A stretch of 39,115 bases of DNA, taken from Nitrososphaerota archaeon. GTDB lineage: Archaea; Thermoproteota; Nitrososphaeria; Nitrososphaerales; Nitrosopumilaceae. The notes beneath the pieces were generated by a model. That model was given only the letters and a program-made list of their open reading frames with translations. It made no database searches and had not been told where the DNA came from. The DNA is taken from positions 1 through 39,115 of the forward strand of contig JAJPGU010000020.1 in the NCBI GenBank assembly GCA_021325615.1. The letters are read 5' to 3'. Positions 10,757-27,764 of the stretch are shown here, one piece after another. The position numbers and the translations under genes were made by a program. Each line of letters begins with the position of its first letter. Position 1 is the first letter of the stretch.

Positions 10757-11518
10757 CTACTTTTTCGACTTGTTAACAAAAGCCGTCATGCGTTCAGTTC
10801 GGTCCGGGTGGGTAAAGCAGAGGCCCCATGTGTAAAGTTCCAAGGCAAGTCCGGTATCGATGTCGGAGTTCCTGCCTTTGTTTATTGCAACCTTGGACAT
10901 CCTTACGGCCATTGCTGAATTCTGTGCAATCATCTTGGCGAAACTCGTTGTCTCCTCGGCAAGCTTTGCTAGCTCGACCACCTTGTTTACTAGGCCCATT
11001 TCCTTGGCCTCGTCAGATTTTATCATTCGGCCAGTGTATATCAGGTCCTTTGCCTGTGATATCCCTATTATCCTCTGGAGTCTTTGCGTTCCGCCCCAGC
11101 CTGGACAAACGCCTATTGTTACCTCGGGCTGGCCTATTTTTGCGGTATCTGCAGCAATCCTGATGTCGCATGCTAGGGCTAGCTCGCAGCCGCCTCCAAG
11201 TGCGAAGCCATTGATGGCCGCAATAGTTGGTTTGCTGCAGTTTTCCACTGTTGTGGTCAGAAGGTGGCCTACCTTTGCATATGCTTCTGCCTCGATTGGC
11301 GAAATCGTCGACATGTATGCGATGTCGGCACCGGCAGAAAATGCCTTGTCACCTTCGCCGGTAAGGACGACGACCTTTACGGCGTCATCCGACTCTATTT
11401 CTTTGAACACCTTGATTATGTCGTTTGCAACCTCGATATTCATTGCATTGAGTTTGTCAGGCCTGTTGATCTTTACAGTGCAAATCCCGTCAGATTTTGA
11501 GACGTTAACAAGAGACAT
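10757..11518 (-). CDS. enoyl-CoA hydratase family: probable 3-hydroxypropionyl-CoA dehydratase/crotonyl-CoA hydratase
   Basis: A 253-residue crotonase-fold protein. The oxyanion-hole segment is [10 protein letters not shown]; the two catalytic glutamates of hydratases are both present, E112 in [11 protein letters not shown] and E132 in [15 protein letters not shown], 20 residues apart as in rat crotonase. It lies 26 bases downstream of the ADP-forming synthetase gene, with GGAG about 8 bases before its ATG. In Nitrosopumilus maritimus the same neighbour pair catalyses activation of 3-hydroxypropionate and dehydration to acryloyl-CoA, the dehydratase also hydrating crotonyl-CoA later in the cycle. 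Function is assigned by this context plus intact active site. Confidence 0.9.
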
Positions 11519-11544: not shown

Positions 11545-13668
11545 TTAAACCTTGTCAGGCTTGTGTCTTCCCCACTGGTGGAGTGATGCCCCTGCTGCCA
11601 CCCAGTTTCTAATGTCGTCGTAGACTGGAACCTTGTGCTTCTCAATTAGACCTGACACCTTCTGGGTATAGGGGCCTCCGTTTCCTCCGACCAGCACTGG
11701 CTTTTTGCCCTGCTTTGAGAACTCGCCGAGGTAGTCGATGATTGTCTCCTCCAAGGGATCGTCTTGGAACACGAACCACGGCATCACGATGTCGATATTG
11801 GGATCATCCATGAACTTCTGGATGGCATACCTGTAATCATCGGCATTTGCACCCCCGGTGACATCGACTGGATTGCCTGTTCCTATTACGTAGGTCGCGG
11901 GATAATGCTCCTTCATCTCCTTCAGGGTAGCCTCGGAAACTCTGCCTAGCTCCAAGCCATATCTTTCGAATTGGTCGATTGCCCCTATCATGGGTCCTGC
12001 CCCGTTGCTTACCAGCCCGACTCTTGGGCCGCTAGCCGCGGGTTGCCATGCAAGCGCCTTGACTACTGATGCCAATTCTTGATAGCTGTCCACGGACACT
12101 ATGCCTGCCTGCTTGAATGCCCCCATGATTATGGCGTTAGAACCGCCAAGTGAGCCTGTATGTGAGGCAGCCTGTTTTGCTCCAAGAGCGGTCCTCCCGC
12201 TCTTCCATATCACCACTGGTTTTTTCTTTTCATTCATGACCCGTTTTGCGGTCTCAATGAATTTGCGACCATCGCCAAACCCCTCTACATAAAGAGCGAT
12301 TACTTTGGTCTCCGGATCATTTGCAAGATACCATATCATGTCGGCTTCGTCAACATCCGACCTGTTGCCATAGCTTACCATTTTGGAGAGGCCAAACGTG
12401 TCGGCAGTTTCAAGGAAGCTGATGCCCATTGTACCGCTCTGGGAAAGCAGCGCGACTGGACCCTGCCGTGCGCGGATCATTCTTGCCTGGCCCTGGAAGG
12501 CACAATCAAGTCGGTTTGCCGCGTTGAACATGCCTATGCAGTTTGGACCGATGATTCTGATCTTGTTCTGCTCTGACAACCTCTTTATCTCAGCCTCAAA
12601 TCCGGCCCTTTCTCCTCCAAGTTCTTTTCCTCCTCCGGACACTATCACAACATTGTGGATTCCTTTCTTAGCGCACGTTTCAAGGACAGGGGGCGTCACA
12701 GAGAGGTCTACACAAATAACTACCAGGTCTATTGGATCCTGGATCGCCTCCAAGCTTGGGTAGCACTTGATCCCAAGGATCTCTTCAGCCTTTGGGTTGA
12801 TGGGATAGACCTTGCCTTTGTAGTCGTGTTTTGCAAGGCTGTCAAGGACGGAATTTCCAACTTTTCCAGGCGTAGCAGAAGCTCCAACTAGAGCCACAGA
12901 ATTGGGCGTGAAGAAGGTCTCCATAAACTCGATGTTGGGCTGTACCTTGGAGATTGCATCCTTTTTCATCTCCTTCCTGAGTATTATTTTGGCATCAACG
13001 ACATAGTATGATTTTGGATATACTACGATTGGGTTGAAGTCCACGCTGTCAAAATATGCCGCATTGTCCACGCCTATCTTTCCTATCTGGACAAGGGCTT
13101 TGGCAAGCATGGTGAGGTCTATGGGCTTGCTTCCCCTGTACCCCTGCAGTATCTTGGATCCTTTCAGCTCTGCAAGCATAGATTTTGCATCGTCTACAGT
13201 AATCGGAAGCATCCTGAATGCTACGTCCTTGAAAATCTCGGTTAGCACGCCACCGAGGCCTACCATTATGACTGGGCCGAACTGCGGGTCGTTTTGTAAC
13301 CCTACTATTAATTCAACACCCTGTGGGACCATTTTTTCAAGAAGGATCCCCTTGAGTTGGACTCCCTTTTTCTTCGAGAGTCTTGAATGCATGTCGGTGA
13401 ATGCCTTCTTTACCTCCTTCTCATTTTGCAGGCCAACCTTCACTCCGCCAACATCTGTCTTGTGGAGGATTTGGGGCGAAACTACCTTCATGACAAGTGG
13501 GTATCCAAGTTTCTTGGCGGCCTTTGTTGCCTCTTTGGCATTACTCACTAGGGCGTAGCCTGGAACCTTGATTCCATACTTTTTCAGGACTGCTTTTGAT
13601 AGATCTTCGGTTATTACCTTATGATCGGTCGCTATCGTTTGTTCGAAAACTTTTGTAACTGAGCTCAT
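11545..13668 (-). CDS. ADP-forming acyl-CoA synthetase: probable 3-hydroxypropionyl-CoA synthetase
   Basis: A 707-residue fusion of both subunits of the acetyl-CoA synthetase (ADP-forming) family. An ATP-grasp domain comes first (about 20-235; [11 protein letters not shown]) and the CoA-binding Rossmann domain starts near 255 ([16 protein letters not shown]). The phosphorylated histidine motif SHTGSLGG places the catalytic His at 503. ADP-forming chemistry saves one phosphate bond per turn and underlies the energy economy of the thaumarchaeal HP/HB cycle. Two paralogues exist in N. maritimus, for 3-hydroxypropionate and 4-hydroxybutyrate; the adjacent hydratase points to the former. It has its own promoter and leads a two-gene operon. 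Confidence 0.9.
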
Positions 13669-13831: not shown

Positions 13832-14521
13832 TCACAGGCCAAATTCCGACTTGAAATTTCGGTAAAAGATGCGCATGTTTTCTTGAATGATATCCATGTT
13901 CTTTGGGATGCACTCGATTATCTTTTCTGCGGATGTGTCAGGGGCCGAAATTAGGTCGTCTCTGGACTTTTCAAGCCACAACCTTATGGTCGTTTCATCT
14001 ACTTCCAGATGAAACTGTATCCCCACCGCACTCCCTATCTTTATGGCCTGATTCTCATATGTTTTCGAATGCGCAAGTCTGGTTGCACCTGGAGGCAGAT
14101 CAAACGTATCGCCATGCCAATGGAACACTGTAGCGGGATCCCTTATGCCTTGAAACAGCCCGGATCTGGAACTGTTGTCAAACTCGATGTCGTGGTAGAA
14201 TCCTATCTCCTTCTTTGGGCCTCTATAAACGCGTGCCCCGAAGGCCTTTGCTATGAGCTGGGAACCAAGGCATATGCCAAGAACAGGTGTATTTTTTTCC
14301 ACGGCTTTTCGGATTATTCTCATCTCTTCCTTCAAGTAGGCAAGATCATCGTTTGCACTCTCCGGAGCGCCCAGGATTATTATTGCATCGGAATCTTTCT
14401 CTGGGATGGGCTCATTTCTGGCAAGAACCGTCGTTAGCCTAAACCCATCAGTTTCAAAAAGCCTACCCAGGCTGGCAATGCCCTCATTCCTATTGTTCTG
14501 AACCACGAGGATTTCTGACAT
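13832..14521 (-). CDS. class I glutamine amidotransferase-like protein
   Basis: 229 residues. The triad of class I amidotransferases is intact: Cys84 in GICLGSQLIAK, His171 and Glu173 in IQFHLEVDE. There is no synthetase domain, and the protein resembles the stand-alone GMP-synthase-like group; it may hydrolyse glutamine or gamma-glutamyl compounds, or pair with a separate synthetase. The substrate is not visible from sequence. It is transcribed divergently from the small Toprim gene and seems to share a bidirectional TATA element with it. The stop is followed by a 6-bp hairpin (13804-13822) of uncertain meaning. Confidence 0.85.
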   Translation of the reverse strand: MSEILVVQNNRNEGIASLGRLFETDGFRLTTVLARNEPIPEKDSDAIIILGAPESANDDLAYLKEEMRIIRKAVEKNTPVLGICLGSQLIAKAFGARVYRGPKKEIGFYHDIEFDNSSRSGLFQGIRDPATVFHWHGDTFDLPPGATRLAHSKTYENQAIKIGSAVGIQFHLEVDETTIRLWLEKSRDDLISAPDTSAEKIIECIPKNMDIIQENMRIFYRNFKSEFGL

Positions 14522-18591: not shown

Positions 18592-19722
18592 TTAGGCTTT
18601 CTTCTGGCCGTCATGCAGCCGCTTCAGGTGGTAAAGCATCCTCTTCAATACCTCGATGCTTCGCAGATACTCGTCAGTCGACACACGCTCGTCTATGGTA
18701 TGGGAGGCATGGGGGTCGCCAGGACCATATGTTACAACGGGTATATTCAACGAGTTCCCAATTATGTTCATGTCGCCAGTCCCGGTCTTCCTAATCAGCT
18801 GCGGCCTTGATTTTTCGACATCTAGTATTCCAAGGGTTAGGGCTCTTACAAGGGGAGAACTGTGGGGTGCTTCAAAGGGCTCTGTCTCGTCAAGGATTGA
18901 ATAAAATGCATTTACACCCTGTTTCTTGGCCACATCCTGAACCGTGGTGGCAATCTTCTCTCCCACCATCTTGCAATTCATATCCACTGGGATCCTGATG
19001 TCCATTACAGCGTCGCATTCCACGGCCGTGACATTGTGGCTGGTACCTCCCTTTATCTCTGTAAGGACGGCCGTGAGCATCATGCTTTTGGGCTTGGTTT
19101 CTTGGTTTCCCTCAAGCTCATCTTTGATGGCCTTGGTGAATACGTATGATTCCTCTATTGCGTTTTTTGCAAGCCAAGGAGCGCTGGCATGTGCGCTGTC
19201 GCCTACGTTTACCTTGAGGTTGATGGCAATCCTGCCCTTGTAGGCAATGGTGATGTTTCTTATGCTGCTTGGTTCTCCAAATATCGCATAATCGATATCC
19301 AGCTTTTGTTTGACGAGGCTTTTGATCCCGGTGGCATTACCTTCCTCATCGACAACTGCTGCAAAGACCACCGTTCCATTGTTGTTTTGGAGCGATGCTG
19401 CTGCTAGAAGCATTGCCATGAGAGGGGCCTTGGCATCCGAAGCCCCCCTCCCGTAGATGTGGCCGTTTTCGTTCCTAACCTTGATCTTACCAGGGACAGT
19501 GTCCATGTGACCGCAAAGCAATATCTTCGGAGAGCCGGAACCCTTGGTCGCAATCAGGTTCCCCACCTCGTCAATGCGAATATTCTCGAAACCTAGATCA
19601 TCACACTTGTCGGCCAGGAATTCTGCCAGGGGCTTCTCGGAAAGCGATGGCGTGTACAGCCTCAGAGCCTTCTCTAGCATCTTTACTGAAAATCTTGGTG
19701 TAATGGTGATTGAGGAGTCCAA
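18592..19722 (-). CDS. lysK: [LysW]-lysine/[LysW]-ornithine hydrolase (M20 peptidase family)
   Basis: Releases lysine, and probably ornithine, from the LysW carrier protein. The 376-residue M20 metallopeptidase has LLCGHMDTVPG (metal ligand H72, D74), GRGASDAK (bridging D97), DEEG (catalytic E126 and ligand E127) and the C-terminal GDPHASHTID. The start is TTG 19722, 3 bases after the lysX stop; an ATG 14 codons later would cut into the fold. It is last in the lysS-lysW-lysX-lysK unit. Only one hydrolase is present in the window, so it likely serves both the lysine and arginine branches. Confidence 0.94.
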   Translation of the reverse strand: MDSSITITPRFSVKMLEKALRLYTPSLSEKPLAEFLADKCDDLGFENIRIDEVGNLIATKGSGSPKILLCGHMDTVPGKIKVRNENGHIYGRGASDAKAPLMAMLLAAASLQNNNGTVVFAAVVDEEGNATGIKSLVKQKLDIDYAIFGEPSSIRNITIAYKGRIAINLKVNVGDSAHASAPWLAKNAIEESYVFTKAIKDELEGNQETKPKSMMLTAVLTEIKGGTSHNVTAVECDAVMDIRIPVDMNCKMVGEKIATTVQDVAKKQGVNAFYSILDETEPFEAPHSSPLVRALTLGILDVEKSRPQLIRKTGTGDMNIIGNSLNIPVVTYGPGDPHASHTIDERVSTDEYLRSIEVLKRMLYHLKRLHDGQKKA

Positions 19723-19725
19723 TTC

Positions 19726-20574
19726 TTATTTTCTCGACTGTTTGGCGTAATCTATCATCAAGGCCGGTATATCTACGCCAGTAACCCTTACGGTATTTTT
19801 GTATTCCGTTGTGTTGTTGACTTCGTGCACGACCAATCCTCGGTCTTTGCTCTCCATGAGATCTATCCCTACTATCTGACCTTGGACAGCATTTTTTGCC
19901 TTGATGCAGATGTCTTCCATCTCCTTGGTCACCTTCAGGGGCTCTGCCTTGCCCCCGAGGGCCATGTTTGTCTTCCACTGGCCCTCTCCAGAATATCGGT
20001 ATATTGCTGCCACTATCGAGTCTCCTACCATTATTGCCCTGATGTCACGGGGAGGCCTGTTGACAAATTCCTCGAGGTAGTACACCTGGTATATTGGGTA
20101 CATCTTTTCGCGAGTTTCCATTATCCCTTCGGCGGAATCTCGATCTTTTAGCAGGGCGATCATCCTTCCCCAACTTCCGACGGTGGGCTTGAGCACCATC
20201 GGATATCCATTCTTGTCTAAATAGTCAAGGGCCGCCTCCTCCGAGAACGCAACGGCACTGAAGGGGGTGGGTACGCCATTTTTTACAAGCAGCATGTGAG
20301 TGAACAGCTTGTTTCCTGCCAGTATGCTGGTATTCAGGCTGTTGATGACATTGATGCCCTTCCCTTCGAGGGCAGCGGTCGAATGCAGGCTCCTGTAATA
20401 GCTCACACACCGCTGAATGGCGGTGTCAAAATTTTCCCTGCTCTCGTCTAGGCTGATTGATAGGCTCTTACAGTCGACCATCTTGGCTTCGATGCCCTTT
20501 TTCTTTGCGGCATCAAAGAGTGCTTTTTCTTCCCACCTGATGGTATCGTAGAGTATCGATAGGCCCGAGGTCAC
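19726..20574 (-). CDS. lysX: LysX: LysW-aminoadipate ligase (ATP-grasp)
   Basis: Joins the amino group of alpha-aminoadipate to the carrier LysW using ATP. The 282-residue RimK-type ATP-grasp protein has LKPTVGSWGRMIALL, PRDIRAIMVGDSIVAAIYR and the metal-binding VVHEVNNTTEYKN. The segment after it (NTVRVTGVDIP) resembles Thermus LysX, whereas the paralogue at 25543 has EFKG as in ArgX. This, plus homocitrate synthase in the same unit, supports the lysine assignment. GTG 20574 overlaps the lysW stop (GTGA), indicating translational coupling with the carrier it modifies. Confidence 0.88.
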   Translation of the reverse strand: MTSGLSILYDTIRWEEKALFDAAKKKGIEAKMVDCKSLSISLDESRENFDTAIQRCVSYYRSLHSTAALEGKGINVINSLNTSILAGNKLFTHMLLVKNGVPTPFSAVAFSEEAALDYLDKNGYPMVLKPTVGSWGRMIALLKDRDSAEGIMETREKMYPIYQVYYLEEFVNRPPRDIRAIMVGDSIVAAIYRYSGEGQWKTNMALGGKAEPLKVTKEMEDICIKAKNAVQGQIVGIDLMESKDRGLVVHEVNNTTEYKNTVRVTGVDIPALMIDYAKQSRK

Positions 20575-20735
20575 TGGCCCCAGTCCTCACCAACAGTTTG
20601 TGCTGGTTTCAACTCAAAGCCTGAAGATCCCTTTGTTAGCTCGAAGCTTGCACCGCAGTCGGGGCAAGTCACAATCTCGCCTTCCATCGAATCTTTTGGA
20701 GGATTGATGTTTGCATCGCATTCTAAACATTTCAT
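20571..20735 (-). CDS. lysW: LysW-like amino-group carrier protein ending in Gln instead of Glu
   Basis: 54 residues. A zinc-ribbon fold with Cys3, Cys6, Cys24 and Cys27 (MKCLECD, TCPDCGASFE) and an acidic C-terminal tail ending GEDWGQ. LysW carriers hold biosynthetic intermediates on the side-chain carboxyl of a C-terminal Glu in EDWGE; the codon here is CAG directly before TGA, so the residue is Gln. The second carrier (26401) keeps Glu. The gene starts 1 base after the lysS stop and overlaps the lysX start by 4 bases, so it is surely expressed with LysX. Either Gln is deamidated first, the terminal alpha-carboxyl is used, or the base is a sequencing error. Confidence 0.92.
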   Translation of the reverse strand: MKCLECDANINPPKDSMEGEIVTCPDCGASFELTKGSSGFELKPAQTVGEDWGQ

Positions 20736-20736
20736 A

Positions 20737-21927
20737 TTATTTACCTGTCTTTACCTTCATTTGGGTGTCATTAATTATCTTTTTTTCCAGCCTTTCGTCA
20801 AGCGGGATCTCTAGCAAATCTCCCATCCTGAGGTTTTTCAGGCCGGCGGCCACCTTTTTGGCATGCTCGTCGTTCTGTTCTAGCCCTAGCAGGGACATCA
20901 AGTATGCCGCACCATTCTTGCCAGCAAGTTCTCCAAAGACAATCCTTCTCCTATTGCCTACTATCTTTGGCTCGATCGGCTCGTAGGCTGCTGGGTTTCG
21001 AAGGATGGCAGCCAGGTGGGTTCCTGCCTTGTGCTTGTATGCTGTAGCTCCCACAATGGGCTTTGAATCATAGGGCACTATGCTTGTGTATTGTTCTATG
21101 AGCCTTGAGAGGTCCATCAACATGTCTAGCCTGAAATTGTTGGGTGATCTATAGAGGTATGTCAATGCCACTGCAGTTTCTGCAAGAGCGGGAATTCCTG
21201 TTCTTTCTCCGACGCCGTCTATTGTGGTGTGTATCTGATCAGCACCCCCATCGCATCCTGCCAGCGCATTTGCGAGTGCCAGTCCAATGTCGTTATGGCA
21301 GTGAACATCCAAGGGAGTCTTGACTTTTTCGCGTACTGTCTTTACCAGATTGTACATGCCGCTTGGCCTCATTATGCCGACTGTATCGGGTATGCTTATC
21401 CTGTCTACTCCAGCATCAGAAATCGCCTTGCAGACCTTTAGGAGAAATTCGGGATCTGCCCTGCTGGCATCCTCAACCGTGAACCTCATTTTTAAGCCGT
21501 GGGATTTGGCATACTCTACCGTCTCCACCGCCCTCTTCATGGCCTCTTCTCGCGTTATTCTGAGTTTGTCCTTCATGTGTATGTCCGAAATACCAAGGTA
21601 GGTAGCCATCCAAGTGGCATCGCATTCCAGGGCAATGTCAACGTCTTCCTTTAGTGCCCTAACATGTGCCACGATGTCGGCCTTCAAACCTTGTTTGATG
21701 ATTGTCTTGGTAGCTTCCTTGTGGTCGGGTGAAACTACAGGTGATATCTCTATTTGATCGACACCGAAATAATCGAGCATCCACGCAATCTGAATTCTCT
21801 GCTTGTTTGAGAAGGTGACACCGGGATGCTGTTCGCCTTCCCTCAGCGTGCTGTCAAGGATGTGGATTTTCTTCGACTTTTGTCCCATCTCATTGTATCT
21901 ATATGCATGATAATTCGGGTCTTCCAT
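20737..21927 (-). CDS. lysS: homocitrate synthase (alpha-isopropylmalate synthase family)
   Basis: First step of the aminoadipate route to lysine: condenses acetyl-CoA and 2-oxoglutarate. The 396-residue TIM-barrel protein has LDSTLREGEQHPGVTFSNKQ (catalytic Arg and metal Asp), VDVHCHND-type metal histidines (DVHCHNDIGLALANA) and TIDGVGERTG. The YFGVDQIEISPVVSPDH segment is closer to homocitrate synthases than to isopropylmalate synthases, and the lys context agrees; citramalate synthase is unlikely. ATG 21927 is chosen over the open frame to 22014 because GTTTATATTC lies about 29 bases upstream and a GGAG precedes the ATG. Confidence 0.9.
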   Translation of the reverse strand: MEDPNYHAYRYNEMGQKSKKIHILDSTLREGEQHPGVTFSNKQRIQIAWMLDYFGVDQIEISPVVSPDHKEATKTIIKQGLKADIVAHVRALKEDVDIALECDATWMATYLGISDIHMKDKLRITREEAMKRAVETVEYAKSHGLKMRFTVEDASRADPEFLLKVCKAISDAGVDRISIPDTVGIMRPSGMYNLVKTVREKVKTPLDVHCHNDIGLALANALAGCDGGADQIHTTIDGVGERTGIPALAETAVALTYLYRSPNNFRLDMLMDLSRLIEQYTSIVPYDSKPIVGATAYKHKAGTHLAAILRNPAAYEPIEPKIVGNRRRIVFGELAGKNGAAYLMSLLGLEQNDEHAKKVAAGLKNLRMGDLLEIPLDERLEKKIINDTQMKVKTGK

Positions 21928-21951
21928 TGCTCCTTTAGTACCTAGATCTGC

Positions 21952-21982
21952 GAATATAAACATATTTGTACAGAATTCGGCT
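21952..21982 (-). promoter_or_regulatory. lysS promoter with flanking inverted repeat half-site
   Basis: GTTTATATTC (minus, 21961-21952) is a TATA box about 29 bases from the lysS ATG. AGCCGAA on the minus strand (21982-21976) just upstream is matched by its inverse TTCGGCT at 22035-22029, 46 bases further. The Lrp-type regulator gene ends at 22044, so these may be Lrp sites. Confidence 0.45.
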
Positions 21983-22043
21983 GAAGTGGTTGGATTGATA
22001 ACGAATTTCGTCATTAATCTCTGTTTGTAGCCGAACTTCGGTT

Positions 22044-22463
22044 TTACGCTACAGTCCTTAATATGATGACGGTGTTGGTGTCAAATACACCGGGAATCTT
22101 GCGCAATGCGTCTATACAGCTGTTAATTTCTGTAATGGTAGGCGCCTTGATGATTGTCGCTATGTCGTATTGCCCCGTTATTTCGTAAACCGTGTGAACT
22201 CCTTGAAGCTTTGAAAGTCTGGCAGAAACCTTTGAAGTGTCAGTCGAGGAATCGACCGAAATTAGGATGATTGCACTTGTTGAATTGCTATCGCCTGTTT
22301 CGATGGTGAATTTTTTTATTGTGCCGCCATCTGTGAGGTTCTTCACTCGTCTTCTGACCGCTGATTCTGAAAGCCCGAGTTTCTCTCCAATCTCGACGAA
22401 GGACTGCCTAGAGTCTTTTTTTAGCATTTCAAGTATTGTTTCGTCGGTCTTGTCTCTAGACAT
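22044..22463 (-). CDS. Lrp/AsnC-family transcriptional regulator of the lysine/arginine cluster (LysM-like)
   Basis: 139 residues, full-length Lrp architecture: helix-turn-helix (ILEMLKKDSRQSFVEIGEKL, then SESAVRRRVKNL) at 6-45 and RAM ligand domain at about 60-139 (VYEITGQYDIATIIKA). It overlaps the end of lysJ by 8 bases and has a strong ribosome-binding region (AAGGAGGAG plus AAGGA) inside lysJ. In Sulfolobus an Lrp protein, LysM, in the lys cluster responds to lysine; the location here suggests the same role. Its ligand could also be arginine or a LysW-bound intermediate. Confidence 0.9.
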   Translation of the reverse strand: MSRDKTDETILEMLKKDSRQSFVEIGEKLGLSESAVRRRVKNLTDGGTIKKFTIETGDSNSTSAIILISVDSSTDTSKVSARLSKLQGVHTVYEITGQYDIATIIKAPTITEINSCIDALRKIPGVFDTNTVIILRTVA

Positions 22464-23631
22464 TCCTTCTTTGCTCCTCCTTTGACAATAGGGTGTCTAG
22501 AGTTTCTAAAGCTTTGTTTACGTCAGACTCGGAGATTACAAGTGGCGGAAGTAGCCGAATGATGTTTTTGCCGGAATAGAGGAGCAGCAAGTTGTTTGCG
22601 ATGGCGTCAAAGAGTATGTCTTTGATCTCAAACTTCATCTCAATTCCTATCATGAGCCCCTTTCCTCTGATTTCTCGGATTATCTTGTGCTTCTCCTTCA
22701 ATCGCTCGAGACCTTCGCGTAGTATTTTTCCCATCTTTGCGGCGTTTTCAACCAAGCCATCCTCCGTCAATGCTTGTATTGTGGCTATTCCGGATGAGCA
22801 CGAGAGCGGGTTTCCTCCAAACGTGGATGATTGTTCGCCCTTTCCAATCGATGCAAGTATTTCGGGTTTAACAAGTGTCGCACCCATTGGAACTCCGCCC
22901 GCTATTCCCTTTGCAAGGCACATTATGTCTGGAGCGGTGTCCCAATGCTGGCTTGCCCACAATTTTCCTGTCCTTCCAAGGCCCGCTTGGATCTCGTCAA
23001 AAATCAGTACGGCGCCCTTCTCATTACATATCTCCCTTGCTTCCTGCAGGAAGCCATCCGGTGCTACATGGATGCCGCTCTCTCCTTGGATGGGTTCCAT
23101 GATGACTAGCGCAGTGTCTGGACCAACTGCAGATCGTAGGGCCTCTGCATCTCCGAATGGAGTGAATGAGACATTAGTAAGAAGTGGTTCGAAGGCTTTT
23201 CGGTATTTTGGGTTAAATGTAAGCGATAGGGAGCCAAAGGATTTGCCGTGATAAGAGCCGTTCATTGCCACCATGCCCTTTTTACCTGTGAATTTGCGGG
23301 CAAACTTTATTGCGGCCTCTACTGCCTCAGTGCCGCTATTGTTGAGGTATACTTGGGTCAAGCCAGGAGGGGCAACCTTGATGAGCCGTTCAAGGAATTC
23401 CTCTCGCGTCTTGTTGTAAAGGGAACTATGTACGGTGATTATCTTGTCAAGCTGGGCCTTTAGGGCCTTTACAACACGGGGGTTACAGTGACCCACAAGC
23501 GCCACGCCGTACCCGCCCATGAAATCCACGTACTCCTTTCCGTTGATGTCCCAGACATGCGAACCCAAACCCCTCTCTATTGTTACTGGGAACCTTTGGT
23601 ATATGTTGCCCATGTATTGGTCTTCTGTCAT
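22456..23631 (-). CDS. lysJ: LysW-semialdehyde aminotransferase (LysJ/ArgD family, class III PLP)
   Basis: Transaminates the LysW-bound semialdehyde to LysW-lysine or LysW-ornithine. The 391-residue class III aminotransferase has NSGTEAVEAAIKFAR, the aromatic SYHGKSFGS, IFDEIQAGLGRTG with the PLP-binding Asp, and CLAKGIAGGVPMG with the Schiff-base Lys. ATG 23631 overlaps the lysZ stop (ATGA, 4 bases), which decides the start against an upstream GTG at 23649. A single aminotransferase serving both branches is usual in this system. Confidence 0.93.
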   Translation of the reverse strand: MTEDQYMGNIYQRFPVTIERGLGSHVWDINGKEYVDFMGGYGVALVGHCNPRVVKALKAQLDKIITVHSSLYNKTREEFLERLIKVAPPGLTQVYLNNSGTEAVEAAIKFARKFTGKKGMVAMNGSYHGKSFGSLSLTFNPKYRKAFEPLLTNVSFTPFGDAEALRSAVGPDTALVIMEPIQGESGIHVAPDGFLQEAREICNEKGAVLIFDEIQAGLGRTGKLWASQHWDTAPDIMCLAKGIAGGVPMGATLVKPEILASIGKGEQSSTFGGNPLSCSSGIATIQALTEDGLVENAAKMGKILREGLERLKEKHKIIREIRGKGLMIGIEMKFEIKDILFDAIANNLLLLYSGKNIIRLLPPLVISESDVNKALETLDTLLSKEEQRRNV

Positions 23632-24428
23632 TTCGAAATCACCGTGCACTTTTCGTTAGCGATGGCAGATGATATGGGGTTTTCTCTTTGGCCACTCGCC
23701 ACTATTGCCTGTTTCACGCCCATTTCGATTGCCTCTGTTGCAGCAAGTATCTTCTTTTCCATGCCAAATCCTATCTTGGGAATGATAGCCTTGGCTTCGG
23801 CAAGGGAGAGTTTTGTGACCAACTTTTCATCCATCAAAAGACCATCAACATTGGTTAGGAACAAAATCTTGTCAGAGCCCATCTTGCCTGCTACATATGC
23901 GGCAGCCCTATCGCCATCGACATTGAGGAAATCTGATTCTTCGCTTATCGCAATGGGTGAAATTACCGGAACATAGCCATTGTCTAAAATTATCTTTACC
24001 AAGCCTGAATTAACATCCTGTATTTTTCCTGTGTATCCACCGTCGATTATCATCTTTCTTCCCTTTTCATTGACTACGATTAGCTTCTTTTTTCGCTCGG
24101 CTTGTATTATCCTGCCATCAACTCCTGAAAGTCCAACTGCATTGATTCCATTTTTTTGCAACAAGCTTACAATCATCTTGTTTATCTTACCTGACATAAC
24201 CATTGTGAAAATCTCTGCGGTCTCCTTGTCGGTAAACCTGCTTTTGATGCCGCCGGGAGAAACTATGAATTTTTGCTCCTTTCCCAAAGCCTCCGAGATT
24301 TTCGTAACCTCTTTTCCTCCGCCGTGAACCAGTATTACCTGTTCATGTTCTGCAACCTTCTTCAGGTCAGATATTGTGGAGGGATGTAGACCGTCTACTA
24401 CACTTCCTCCTATCTTAATTGTAATCAT
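23628..24428 (-). CDS. lysZ: LysW-aminoadipate/glutamate kinase (LysZ/ArgB family)
   Basis: Phosphorylates the free side-chain carboxyl of LysW-bound aminoadipate or glutamate. The 266-residue amino-acid kinase has IKIGGSVV, LVHGGGKEV, FLNVDGDRAAAYVA and FLTNVDGLLMD, all typical of N-acetylglutamate kinases and LysZ. The GGIKSRFTDKET segment lies where ArgB binds the acyl group and is changed in LysZ. The gene lies 4 bases after lysY, and its TGA overlaps the lysJ ATG. No separate ArgB is seen in the window, so dual use is inferred. Confidence 0.93.
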   Translation of the reverse strand: MITIKIGGSVVDGLHPSTISDLKKVAEHEQVILVHGGGKEVTKISEALGKEQKFIVSPGGIKSRFTDKETAEIFTMVMSGKINKMIVSLLQKNGINAVGLSGVDGRIIQAERKKKLIVVNEKGRKMIIDGGYTGKIQDVNSGLVKIILDNGYVPVISPIAISEESDFLNVDGDRAAAYVAGKMGSDKILFLTNVDGLLMDEKLVTKLSLAEAKAIIPKIGFGMEKKILAATEAIEMGVKQAIVASGQRENPISSAIANEKCTVISK

Positions 24429-25542: not shown

Positions 25543-26400
25543 TTATTTCAGAGCAGTTCTGACCGCGTATTCGATCATTTCTTTTGGGATGTTTCTTTTA
25601 GCAACCTTTGCAAGTCCTTTGAATTCTACCGTATTGTTTACCTCGTGCACTACAAAGCCTCGCTTGTCATCTTCCATTATGTCAATTCCAAGAATTCCTC
25701 CCCCTACCGCCTTTGAGGCTTTCATGCAGATGTCTTCCAAGTCCTTTGTTATCTCGCAGGGCACGGGCTCTCCACCTAGTGCGATATTCGTCTTAAATCC
25801 GCCTGAGGAAGTCCTATACATGGCTGCAACTACTTGGTCTCCGACGGCTATCGCACGAATGTCGCGAGGAGGCCTCTTAACGGCCTCTTGCAGGTAGTAA
25901 ATCCTGTCGAGTGGGCCGTCTGTTAGTTCTCTAACCTCTATGATTGCGTCAGCAGTGTCTTTGTCTTTTAGGAGTATTACGCCTCTCCCCCAGCTTCCTA
26001 TGATGGGCTTTATGACTAGTGGGTATCCTTCCCTTTCTAGCGTTTCAGCGGCTGATTCGGATGAAAAGGAAAAGAAGGTCTTAGGAGTTGGGACGCCATG
26101 TTTCTTCAGAAGTAACGAAGTGAGCAACTTGTTTCCACAGTTGTTTGCAACCTCGAACCTGTTAAAAACCGGAATGTCAAGAAATTCGAGGCAAGCCGTA
26201 ATGTGCAAGCCCCTGAAGTAGCTTACACACCTTTCAAGGACGACATCACCAAAGTCAAAATCACTCCTCTTGTTCTCGGTGCTTATGTTGGTTATTTTGG
26301 CGTCCACCATTTTCGTATCATGTCCAAGCTCGATTGCCTTTTCCTCGAGCATTTTCTCCTCTAGTCTTACTCTATCGAACATGATGCGAATCTTGGGCAT
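25543..26400 (-). CDS. argX: ArgX: LysW-glutamate ligase (ATP-grasp)
   Basis: 285-residue paralogue of the LysX at 19726, with the same ATP-grasp motifs (IKPIIGSWGRGVILL, PRDIRAIAVGDQVVAAMYR, VVHEVNNTVEFKG). Its C-terminal specificity region reads EFKGLAKVAKRNIP, lacking the N..TGVD pattern of LysX, and it sits between a carrier gene and argG, so glutamate as substrate for arginine synthesis is inferred. ATG 26400 follows the lysW TAA directly. Whether one of the two ligases accepts both amino acids cannot be decided from sequence. Confidence 0.86.
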   Translation of the reverse strand: MPKIRIMFDRVRLEEKMLEEKAIELGHDTKMVDAKITNISTENKRSDFDFGDVVLERCVSYFRGLHITACLEFLDIPVFNRFEVANNCGNKLLTSLLLKKHGVPTPKTFFSFSSESAAETLEREGYPLVIKPIIGSWGRGVILLKDKDTADAIIEVRELTDGPLDRIYYLQEAVKRPPRDIRAIAVGDQVVAAMYRTSSGGFKTNIALGGEPVPCEITKDLEDICMKASKAVGGGILGIDIMEDDKRGFVVHEVNNTVEFKGLAKVAKRNIPKEMIEYAVRTALK

Positions 26401-26568
26401 TTACTCTCCCCAATCTTCGCCTACTTTTTCCGCATGTTTTAATTCGTACGCGGCGCCATTCTTTGAAGCAATCTCAAAATCCGCCCCACAGTCAGGACAG
26501 GATACGATTTCTCCAACACTGGCGTCGTCTGGAATTTTCAATGTTGCATCACATTCTGGGCAATTCAT
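26401..26568 (-). CDS. lysW: LysW amino-group carrier protein (canonical EDWGE end)
   Basis: 55 residues with zinc-ribbon cysteines 3, 6, 24 and 27 (MNCPECD, SCPDCGADFE), an acidic middle, and the canonical C-terminus VGEDWGE, where the last Glu receives glutamate or aminoadipate. ATG 26568 gives a start aligned with the carrier at 20571; a GTG at 26583 overlapping the argG stop (GTGA) is in frame and would add KNQR-type residues. It is placed between argG and argX, so it likely serves the arginine branch mainly. Confidence 0.93.
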   Translation of the reverse strand: MNCPECDATLKIPDDASVGEIVSCPDCGADFEIASKNGAAYELKHAEKVGEDWGE

Positions 26569-26579
26569 TCTTTGATTTT

Positions 26580-27764
26580 TCACCTCTTTAGTAATTTATT
26601 AGCTTCTGTTGATTGAAGCCCCCATAATTCTACGAACCCCTTTGCAAGGGTTTGATCAAAGGTGGAACCCGATCCGTAGGTTGCCAAATCATGGCTGTAA
26701 AGAGAATAATCCGATTTCCTTCCAACGACTCGTAGACTTCCTTTGAACATTTTCAGTTTTACAGTTCCGCTAACTCTCTTCTGCGACGCATTGATAAACA
26801 TATCTAAATCAGTTTTGAGGGGATCTTGCCAAAGACCGGAATATGCAAGCCATGCCCATTCCGAGTCGACCATCGTCTTGAACTTCAGTTCATGTTTCGT
26901 AAGAACCATTTTTTCAAGATCGGTGTGTGCCTCGATAAGGCAGAGTGCGGCTGGAGTCTCGTACACCTCGCGGGATTTTATCCCGACTACCCTGTCTTCT
27001 ATATGATCGACAATACCGACGCCGGCTGCGCCAGCCTTTTTGTTGATATGCTCGATTAACTGAACAGTGCCAAGGTTCCTGCCATCTACTGCTACGGGGA
27101 TTCCTTGCTCGAACTTTATTTCCAGGTATTGGGGCTTGTCGGGAAGATTCTTGGTCTTGACCCAGATGAATGCATCCTCGGGAGGTTCCGAATAGGCGTC
27201 CTCCAGCTCCCCTCCTTCTATTGCTCTGCCCCAGAGATTCTGGTCAATGCTGAACCTTTTTGCGGCAGTATCGATTTGTATGCCGTGTCTCTGGGCGAAC
27301 TTTAGCTCAACGTCCCGTGTGAGGTTGAGATCCCGGATTGGGGCAACTATTGGAAGGCTGGAGCCCGATCGCATGGTAACGTCGAATCGTACCTGGTCGT
27401 TTCCTTTGCCAGTACATCCATGTGCGAGTGCCTTTGCATTCTCTTTTTTGGCAATCTCTACCACCTTTTGAGCGATAAGGGGGCGTGCAAGGGCCGTCGC
27501 AAGACAGTATTTCTTCTGGTACAGGGCGTTTGCCTTTATTGATGGGATGATGAAGTCTTGTGCGAATTCTTTCCTTGCGTCTATGTTGTAATGCCGGATG
27601 ACGCCGAGTTTCTTTGCCTTGGCTGAAATTTTTTTCAGATCATCACCCTGTCCCACATCGACCGTTACAGTAACAACGTCCAAGTGATGCTTTTCTTGGA
27701 GATACTTGACTACGACGGAGGTGTCAAGCCCTCCGGAGAAAGCAAGAATCGCCTTTCCTTTCAT
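26580..27764 (-). CDS. argG: argininosuccinate synthase
   Basis: Joins citrulline and aspartate with ATP. The 394-residue protein begins with the N-type ATP pyrophosphatase loop AFSGGLDTS (8-16) and carries family segments YCLATALARPLIA, AHGCTGKGNDQVRF and YDPLKTDLD-like LWQDPLKTDLD. Length and ends are complete. It heads the operon argG-lysW-argX, linking the last arginine steps with the carrier system. Argininosuccinate lyase is not in the window. A TATA-like GATAAATG region (about 27803-27791, minus) precedes ATG 27764. Confidence 0.97.
   Translation of the reverse strand: MKGKAILAFSGGLDTSVVVKYLQEKHHLDVVTVTVDVGQGDDLKKISAKAKKLGVIRHYNIDARKEFAQDFIIPSIKANALYQKKYCLATALARPLIAQKVVEIAKKENAKALAHGCTGKGNDQVRFDVTMRSGSSLPIVAPIRDLNLTRDVELKFAQRHGIQIDTAAKRFSIDQNLWGRAIEGGELEDAYSEPPEDAFIWVKTKNLPDKPQYLEIKFEQGIPVAVDGRNLGTVQLIEHINKKAGAAGVGIVDHIEDRVVGIKSREVYETPAALCLIEAHTDLEKMVLTKHELKFKTMVDSEWAWLAYSGLWQDPLKTDLDMFINASQKRVSGTVKLKMFKGSLRVVGRKSDYSLYSHDLATYGSGSTFDQTLAKGFVELWGLQSTEANKLLKR

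Follow-up and report, generated by a model that had tools for sequence, protein, structure and literature searches.

The lysine and arginine gene cluster

The window, our term for the whole stretch of 39,115 nucleotides analyzed here (contig JAJPGU010000020.1), comes from a Ca. Nitrosotalea-like genome whose closest named records are Nitrosotalea. Its minus strand carries a lysine and arginine cluster in the order ArgG, ArgW (ending in Glu), ArgX, LysY, LysZ, LysJ, LysM, a homocitrate-synthase-type enzyme, LysW-Q, LysX and LysK. The features are given below in that order, with profile scores and family cut-offs.

26580..27764, minus strand: ArgG, argininosuccinate synthase; assigned from gene order and ORF translation, with homologs in the same place in relatives
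26401..26583, minus strand: ArgW/LysW2, the paralogous carrier, ending in Glu (GAG, 26404-26406); NF041070, 90.5 bits (cut-off 75)
25543..26400, minus strand: ArgX-type ligase, adjoining ArgW and ArgG; TIGR02144, 302 bits
24433..25485, minus strand: LysY/ArgC reductase; TIGR01850, 429 bits (cut-off 234)
23628..24428, minus strand: LysZ, [LysW]-aminoadipate/glutamate kinase; NF010662, 295 bits (cut-off 194)
22456..23649, minus strand: LysJ/ArgD aminotransferase; TIGR00707, 426 bits (cut-off 410)
22044..22463, minus strand: LysM-type Lrp/AsnC regulator; NF040947, 189 bits (cut-off 180)
20737..22014, minus strand: homocitrate/isopropylmalate synthase-type enzyme; TIGR02146, 388.7 bits, slightly under the cut-off of 413.6
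20571..20735, minus strand: lysW-Q, LysW-type carrier of 54 aa with four zinc cysteines and the tail EDWG-Gln; ORF translation and profile
19726..20574, minus strand: LysX ligase, ATP-grasp, RimK family; TIGR02144, 336.9 bits (cut-off 275.6)
about 20164-20178, minus strand: GSWGR motif within LysX
18592..19722, minus strand: LysK, M20 [LysW]-lysine/ornithine hydrolase; TIGR01902, 261 bits (cut-off 163)

The synthase-type enzyme probably catalyzes the first step toward alpha-aminoadipate. Elsewhere in the window, a 3-hydroxypropionate--CoA ligase gene (11545-13668, minus strand, scoring above its cut-off) neighbors an enoyl-CoA hydratase gene (10757-11518, minus strand), and the two probably belong to the 3-hydroxypropionate/4-hydroxybutyrate carbon-fixation cycle. 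In some other genomes the LysW-LysX-LysK trio is intact while the rest of the lysine/arginine cluster sits elsewhere (L068/L069, L070/L071, L107/L108 and L098/L099).

The 54-residue product of lysW-Q is MKCLECDANINPPKDSMEGEIVTCPDCGASFELTKGSSGFELKPAQTVGEDWGQ. Its last sense codon is CAG (20574-20576), followed by the stop TGA (20571-20573), which is overlapped by the GTG start of lysX (20574-20572). The first-pass annotation had called a LysW beside LysX ending in EDWG-Gln, with a paralog ending in Glu and with four zinc cysteines and the EDWG tail intact; the CAG and GAG codons of the two carrier genes and the translation (CLEC and CPDC pairs, then EDWG) bear it out. The zinc-ribbon domain is PF21344. 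Against NF041070, the NCBIfam profile for archaeal LysW/ArgW carriers, the protein scored 82.9 bits, above the cut-off of 75, and against TIGR01206 (lysW) it scored 26.1 bits, below the cut-off of 53.2. One hallmark of LysW/ArgW carriers, a C-terminal Glu with its gamma-carboxyl, is absent as encoded, while the remaining ones are present: the CxxC pairs, the EDWG tail and GSWGR of its partner, the NF041070 match and the gene neighborhood. No third LysW gene was found in this genome, which has only lysW-Q and ArgW/LysW2.

The EDWGQ tail was seen in all 29 congeners that were read directly, one of which (G035) matches the coordinates of the complete Ca. Nitrosotalea devanaterra genome LN890280. 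The window's own family writes terminal Gln as CAG, and other families use CAG or CAA; because both codons are used where there is no overlapping start, it is the residue that is conserved and not the codon. Errors in sequencing or assembly, and recoding of the codon, can be dismissed as having a negligible chance, since the same residue recurs in hundreds of independent genomes and both Gln codons are in use. The f1 loci that were read have the overlap of lysW stop and lysX GTG as CAGTGA, or as GAGTGA in Glu revertants, and this overlap may lie behind the use of CAG rather than CAA in that family.

Distribution of Gln-ending carriers

We searched 400 genomes of the class with a DNA pattern for EDWGQ followed by a stop, using the reversed pattern as control. 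The pattern matched in 263 genomes and the control in none of the 400. By hand tally across families, all 263 genomes with at least one Gln carrier belong to f1, f2 and f8, which contributed 290 genomes to the sample; the remaining 110 genomes, from other families of the class, had none. We take f1, f2 and f8 to be the ammonia oxidizers (Nitrosopumilaceae, Nitrosocaldaceae and Nitrososphaeraceae).

Within these three families every combination of endings was found. The arrangement of the window, LysW-Q with ArgW-E, is typical of f1, f2-g2 and f8-g43, while the reverse, LysW-E with ArgW-Q, occurs in f8-g45 and g49. Gln is on both carriers in f8-g44, g20, g53 and g55 and in f1-g28. In f8-g8, represented by complete single-contig genomes (G043, G144 and G148; loci L065, L066 and L067), ArgW has been lost from between ArgG and ArgX, leaving a lone LysW-Q with both LysX and ArgX retained. 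Glu is on both carriers in f2-g46, and also, nested among Gln relatives, in the f1-g27 clade (G131, G246, G309 and G321) and in G282. In one f1 genome (G175, L100) the sole carrier ends in Glu; the LysX-linked LysW is gone, and LysX still lies beside the homocitrate-synthase gene. Across f1 each paralog mostly retains its own ending. Within f8, the genomes with two Gln carriers are presumably Nitrososphaera-like and those with a single Gln carrier Nitrosocosmicus-like.

The possibility raised beforehand, that relatives uniformly end in Glu, is thus contradicted by most of the genomes in these families. Whether Gln is conserved beside LysX, as had also been asked, has a split answer: it is so among the congeners and in typical f1 genomes, but Gln is not tied to LysX, since some genera pair ArgW-Q with LysW-E.

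Two further observations were made in these loci. One f8 genome (G353, L083/L084) has two differing copies of the cluster, one with LysW-E and ArgW-Q and the other with LysW-Q; its assembly has ∼6% contamination, and the double cluster may represent two organisms. At column 53 of the carrier alignment, eight residues from the end, ammonia oxidizers mostly have KPAQ in LysW versus KPAE in ArgW, a Glu/Gln split that is independent of the terminal residue.

A second sample covered 309 further genomes of the same phylum, outside the class, again tallied by hand. True Gln-tail carriers were present in 14 of these, from families f32, f37, f55 and f58, versus 175 genomes with a Glu tail. A fifteenth EDWGQ match, in G433, arose by chance in a frame that does not encode a carrier. 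We read 13 of the outside-class loci; 12 had true carriers, most of them in LysX/LysZ/LysY/LysK clusters, and in the loci read the Gln carrier was usually the only carrier of its genome. A restriction of the Gln ending to ammonia oxidizers is ruled out by these four families. For f32, f37 and f55, sisters with a Glu ending exist within the genus or the family. Genus g118 has Gln in G515 and G535 and Glu in G461, G495 and G540; genus g134 has Gln in G523 and Glu in G488; and same-family Glu sisters occur in f37-g122, f32-g163 and g174. Such close pairing of the two forms means that the Gln form arose several times, and from these sequences its occurrences in the four outside families are read as independent. 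The phenomenon is broader than the first-pass annotation described, and it is part of the known LysW/ArgW carrier system. We found no published mention of a Gln-ending LysW in the open-access literature; a genome-scale model of Nitrosopumilus maritimus employs only the ArgX-linked LysW (PMC6038301).

Constraint on the terminal residue and the ligases

The terminal residue was sampled with a carrier pattern that required DWG and left the residues after it free. From 204 loci this yielded 278 carriers, which are not independent because many of the genomes are closely related: 176 ended in Gln, 102 in Glu and none in any other residue. Mapped onto a tree of 227 carrier-adjacent ligases, the terminal position has switched between Gln and Glu at least nine times, compared with 20 to 66 changes for freely varying sites. 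That no third residue occurs suggests that this position tolerates only Glu or a side chain convertible into it. The four cysteines are present in all aligned carriers of the class, an invariance that is partly built in, as the search pattern partly required Cys and DWG.

The ligases show no corresponding change. Among 94 carrier-linked ligases there were 27 invariant positions, including those of GSWGR, the motif by which LysX recognizes EDWGE (PMC10433800). Between sister genomes, the ligase serving a Gln carrier and the one serving a Glu carrier were as much as 88% identical, and no substitution was consistently associated with the ending. No residue of LysX or ArgX covaried with the Gln/Glu state; the lone strong column was an artefact, caused by the lysX reading frame starting within the lysW stop region. 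A ligase unaffected by the ending suggests either that it always meets Glu, or that it uses the alpha-carboxyl.

Function of the Gln carrier

Genomes with two Gln carriers or with a sole Gln carrier retain LysX, ArgX, LysZ, LysY, LysJ and LysK, and no ArgJ was found in 15 Gln genomes tested. With both ligases and the shared enzymes kept, and without ArgJ, such genomes must be using a Gln carrier, so by gene content LysW-Gln is very probably a working carrier.

The first-pass annotation had considered that this LysW is inactive or regulatory while the Glu-ending paralog carries both cargoes. A genome with one Glu carrier could in principle work in this way, and in Sulfolobus one LysW does serve both pathways (PMC10433800). 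As a general account it is refuted by the genomes, complete one-contig ones included, in which both carriers or the single carrier end in Gln beside LysX and ArgX; the strong conservation of EDWGQ and of its pairing with LysX also stands against it, and we consider it highly improbable.

A search for lysA gave no match in the tested Gln genomes of f1, f32, f37 and f55. Six f8 genomes (G043, G144, G148, G156, G174 and G177) have a lysA-like PLP decarboxylase scoring 235-256 bits, under the family cut-off of 298, which was not seen in the tested f1 genomes; it may give these f8 genomes a second lysine route.

Routes to a loaded carrier

A working carrier ending in Gln could be loaded without any change to its side chain if LysX and ArgX used the alpha-carboxyl of the final residue as the point of attachment, the side chain then having no need to be a free acid. 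LysX belongs to the RimK family, and RimK makes alpha-linked additions; LysK is related to M20 hydrolases such as carboxypeptidase G2; and free exchange of Glu and Gln with an unchanged ligase is as would be expected. However, the linkage reported in the literature is to the gamma-carboxyl, and in Natrinema an E54A carrier, whose alpha-carboxyl is intact, fails in arginine synthesis and leaves the cell an arginine auxotroph (PMC10433800). Alpha-linkage also predicts terminal residues other than Glu and Gln, of which the 278 carriers offered none. We consider alpha-linkage unlikely.

The failure of E54A despite its alpha-carboxyl, together with the missing third residue, favors instead deamidation of LysW-Gln to Glu before loading. 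As the sequence patterns stand, this is probably what occurs: repeated Glu/Gln exchange, no matching change in the ligase, and only Glu or Gln at the end are best fitted by it. Of the three options listed by the first-pass annotation, then, deamidation has gained, alpha-linkage has become a minor prospect, and the inactive carrier with LysW2 serving both pathways has, as a general account, been lost to the genomes with two Gln carriers or a sole one.

Under the deamidation model, LysW-Gln would be made as a pro-form of the carrier. The side-chain amide of Gln54 would be hydrolyzed once, giving Glu54 with its gamma-carboxyl, to which LysX would join aminoadipate (or ArgX glutamate) through its amino group; the steps of LysZ, LysY and LysJ would follow as usual.

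The deamidation might be the work of a separate deamidase or broad amidase, other than LysK, that turns Gln54 into Glu54. The distribution of Gln, the switches between endings and the unchanged ligase accommodate such an enzyme equally, but each of the at least five distant lineages in which Gln arose independently would have to possess it. The only candidate near the cluster, a class-I glutamine amidotransferase (13832-14521, minus strand), is ruled out by its distribution: it is common to f1, f2, f3 and f8 and present in Glu genomes, and it had no match (E up to 1e-10) in the Gln genomes of f32, f37, f55 and f58, nor in G105. A dedicated enzyme of this kind seems to us rather unlikely.

Repeated independent origins of Gln favor an enzyme already present in every such genome. 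The likeliest deamidase would be LysK, which at the end of the cycle frees lysine or ornithine by hydrolyzing its amide bond to Glu54. In chemical terms a carrier ending in Gln is one "loaded with ammonia", so the hydrolase that frees the product could also activate the newly made carrier. LysK scored above its family cut-off in every one of 15 genomes, of which 13 have a Gln carrier; its catalytic site is preserved, with H72, D74, D96, E126, E127, E150 and H341 invariant; and it remains beside LysW-Q and LysX in several genomes in which the remaining cluster has moved. It occurs in Glu-only genomes too, so its presence does not discriminate. No residues specific to ammonia oxidizers were found in LysK, and a comparison of the small number of sister pairs at hand gave no convincing convergent column in LysK, LysZ, LysY or LysJ. 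We name LysK tentatively, as an enzyme that may well perform the Gln54 deamidation.

A precedent is Dop of Mycobacterium, a single hydrolase that deamidates the terminal Gln with which Pup is encoded there and also detaches Pup from tagged proteins (PMC8599861). It is conceivable, though we hold it with some doubt, that the Gln carriers take part in a full pro-carrier cycle, in which LysK would be a dual deamidase and product-releasing hydrolase, following Dop-like logic independently of Pup, and in which carrier activation would be a control point.

The C-terminal Glu of LysW has been considered indispensable for cargo attachment, and Gln in its place implies either a hidden activation step or a linkage that is not universal. 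Gln is found in most ammonia-oxidizing archaea, cultured species included, and in unrelated lineages as well. In either case, accounts of how some of the most abundant archaea make lysine and arginine would have to change.

Comparison with known carrier systems

The LysW/ArgW proteins of Thermus, Sulfolobus, Thermococcus and haloarchaea (PDB 3vpb, 5k2m and 3wwl) resemble lysW-Q in size, in their two CxxC zinc pairs and in the EDWG tail, and their operons include LysX, LysZ, LysY, LysJ and LysK as in the window. They differ at the last residue, which is Glu with the cargo on its gamma-carboxyl in the known carriers, and Gln in lysW-Q. RimK alpha-L-glutamate ligases share a superfamily with LysX; RimK acts on the alpha-carboxyl, whereas LysX has been described as acting on the gamma-carboxyl.

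The likeness to the Pup/PafA/Dop system is one of scheme: a small protein is joined through the gamma-carboxyl of a C-terminal Glu, and that position is encoded as Gln in some lineages and Glu in others. Carrier, ligase and hydrolase are all without sequence relation between the two systems. The Pup ligase has a glutamine-synthetase fold, in contrast to the ATP-grasp LysX, and the hydrolase of the LysW system belongs to M20. Lacking Pup homology and a PafA/Dop-type ligase and hydrolase, the lysW-Q system does not qualify as a Pup-like modifier. Pup tags proteins for degradation, whereas LysW serves biosynthesis; if the dual role of LysK is true, the Pup scheme of encoding Gln, deamidating it, ligating, and cutting with the same hydrolase would have evolved twice, in this second instance for metabolism alone.
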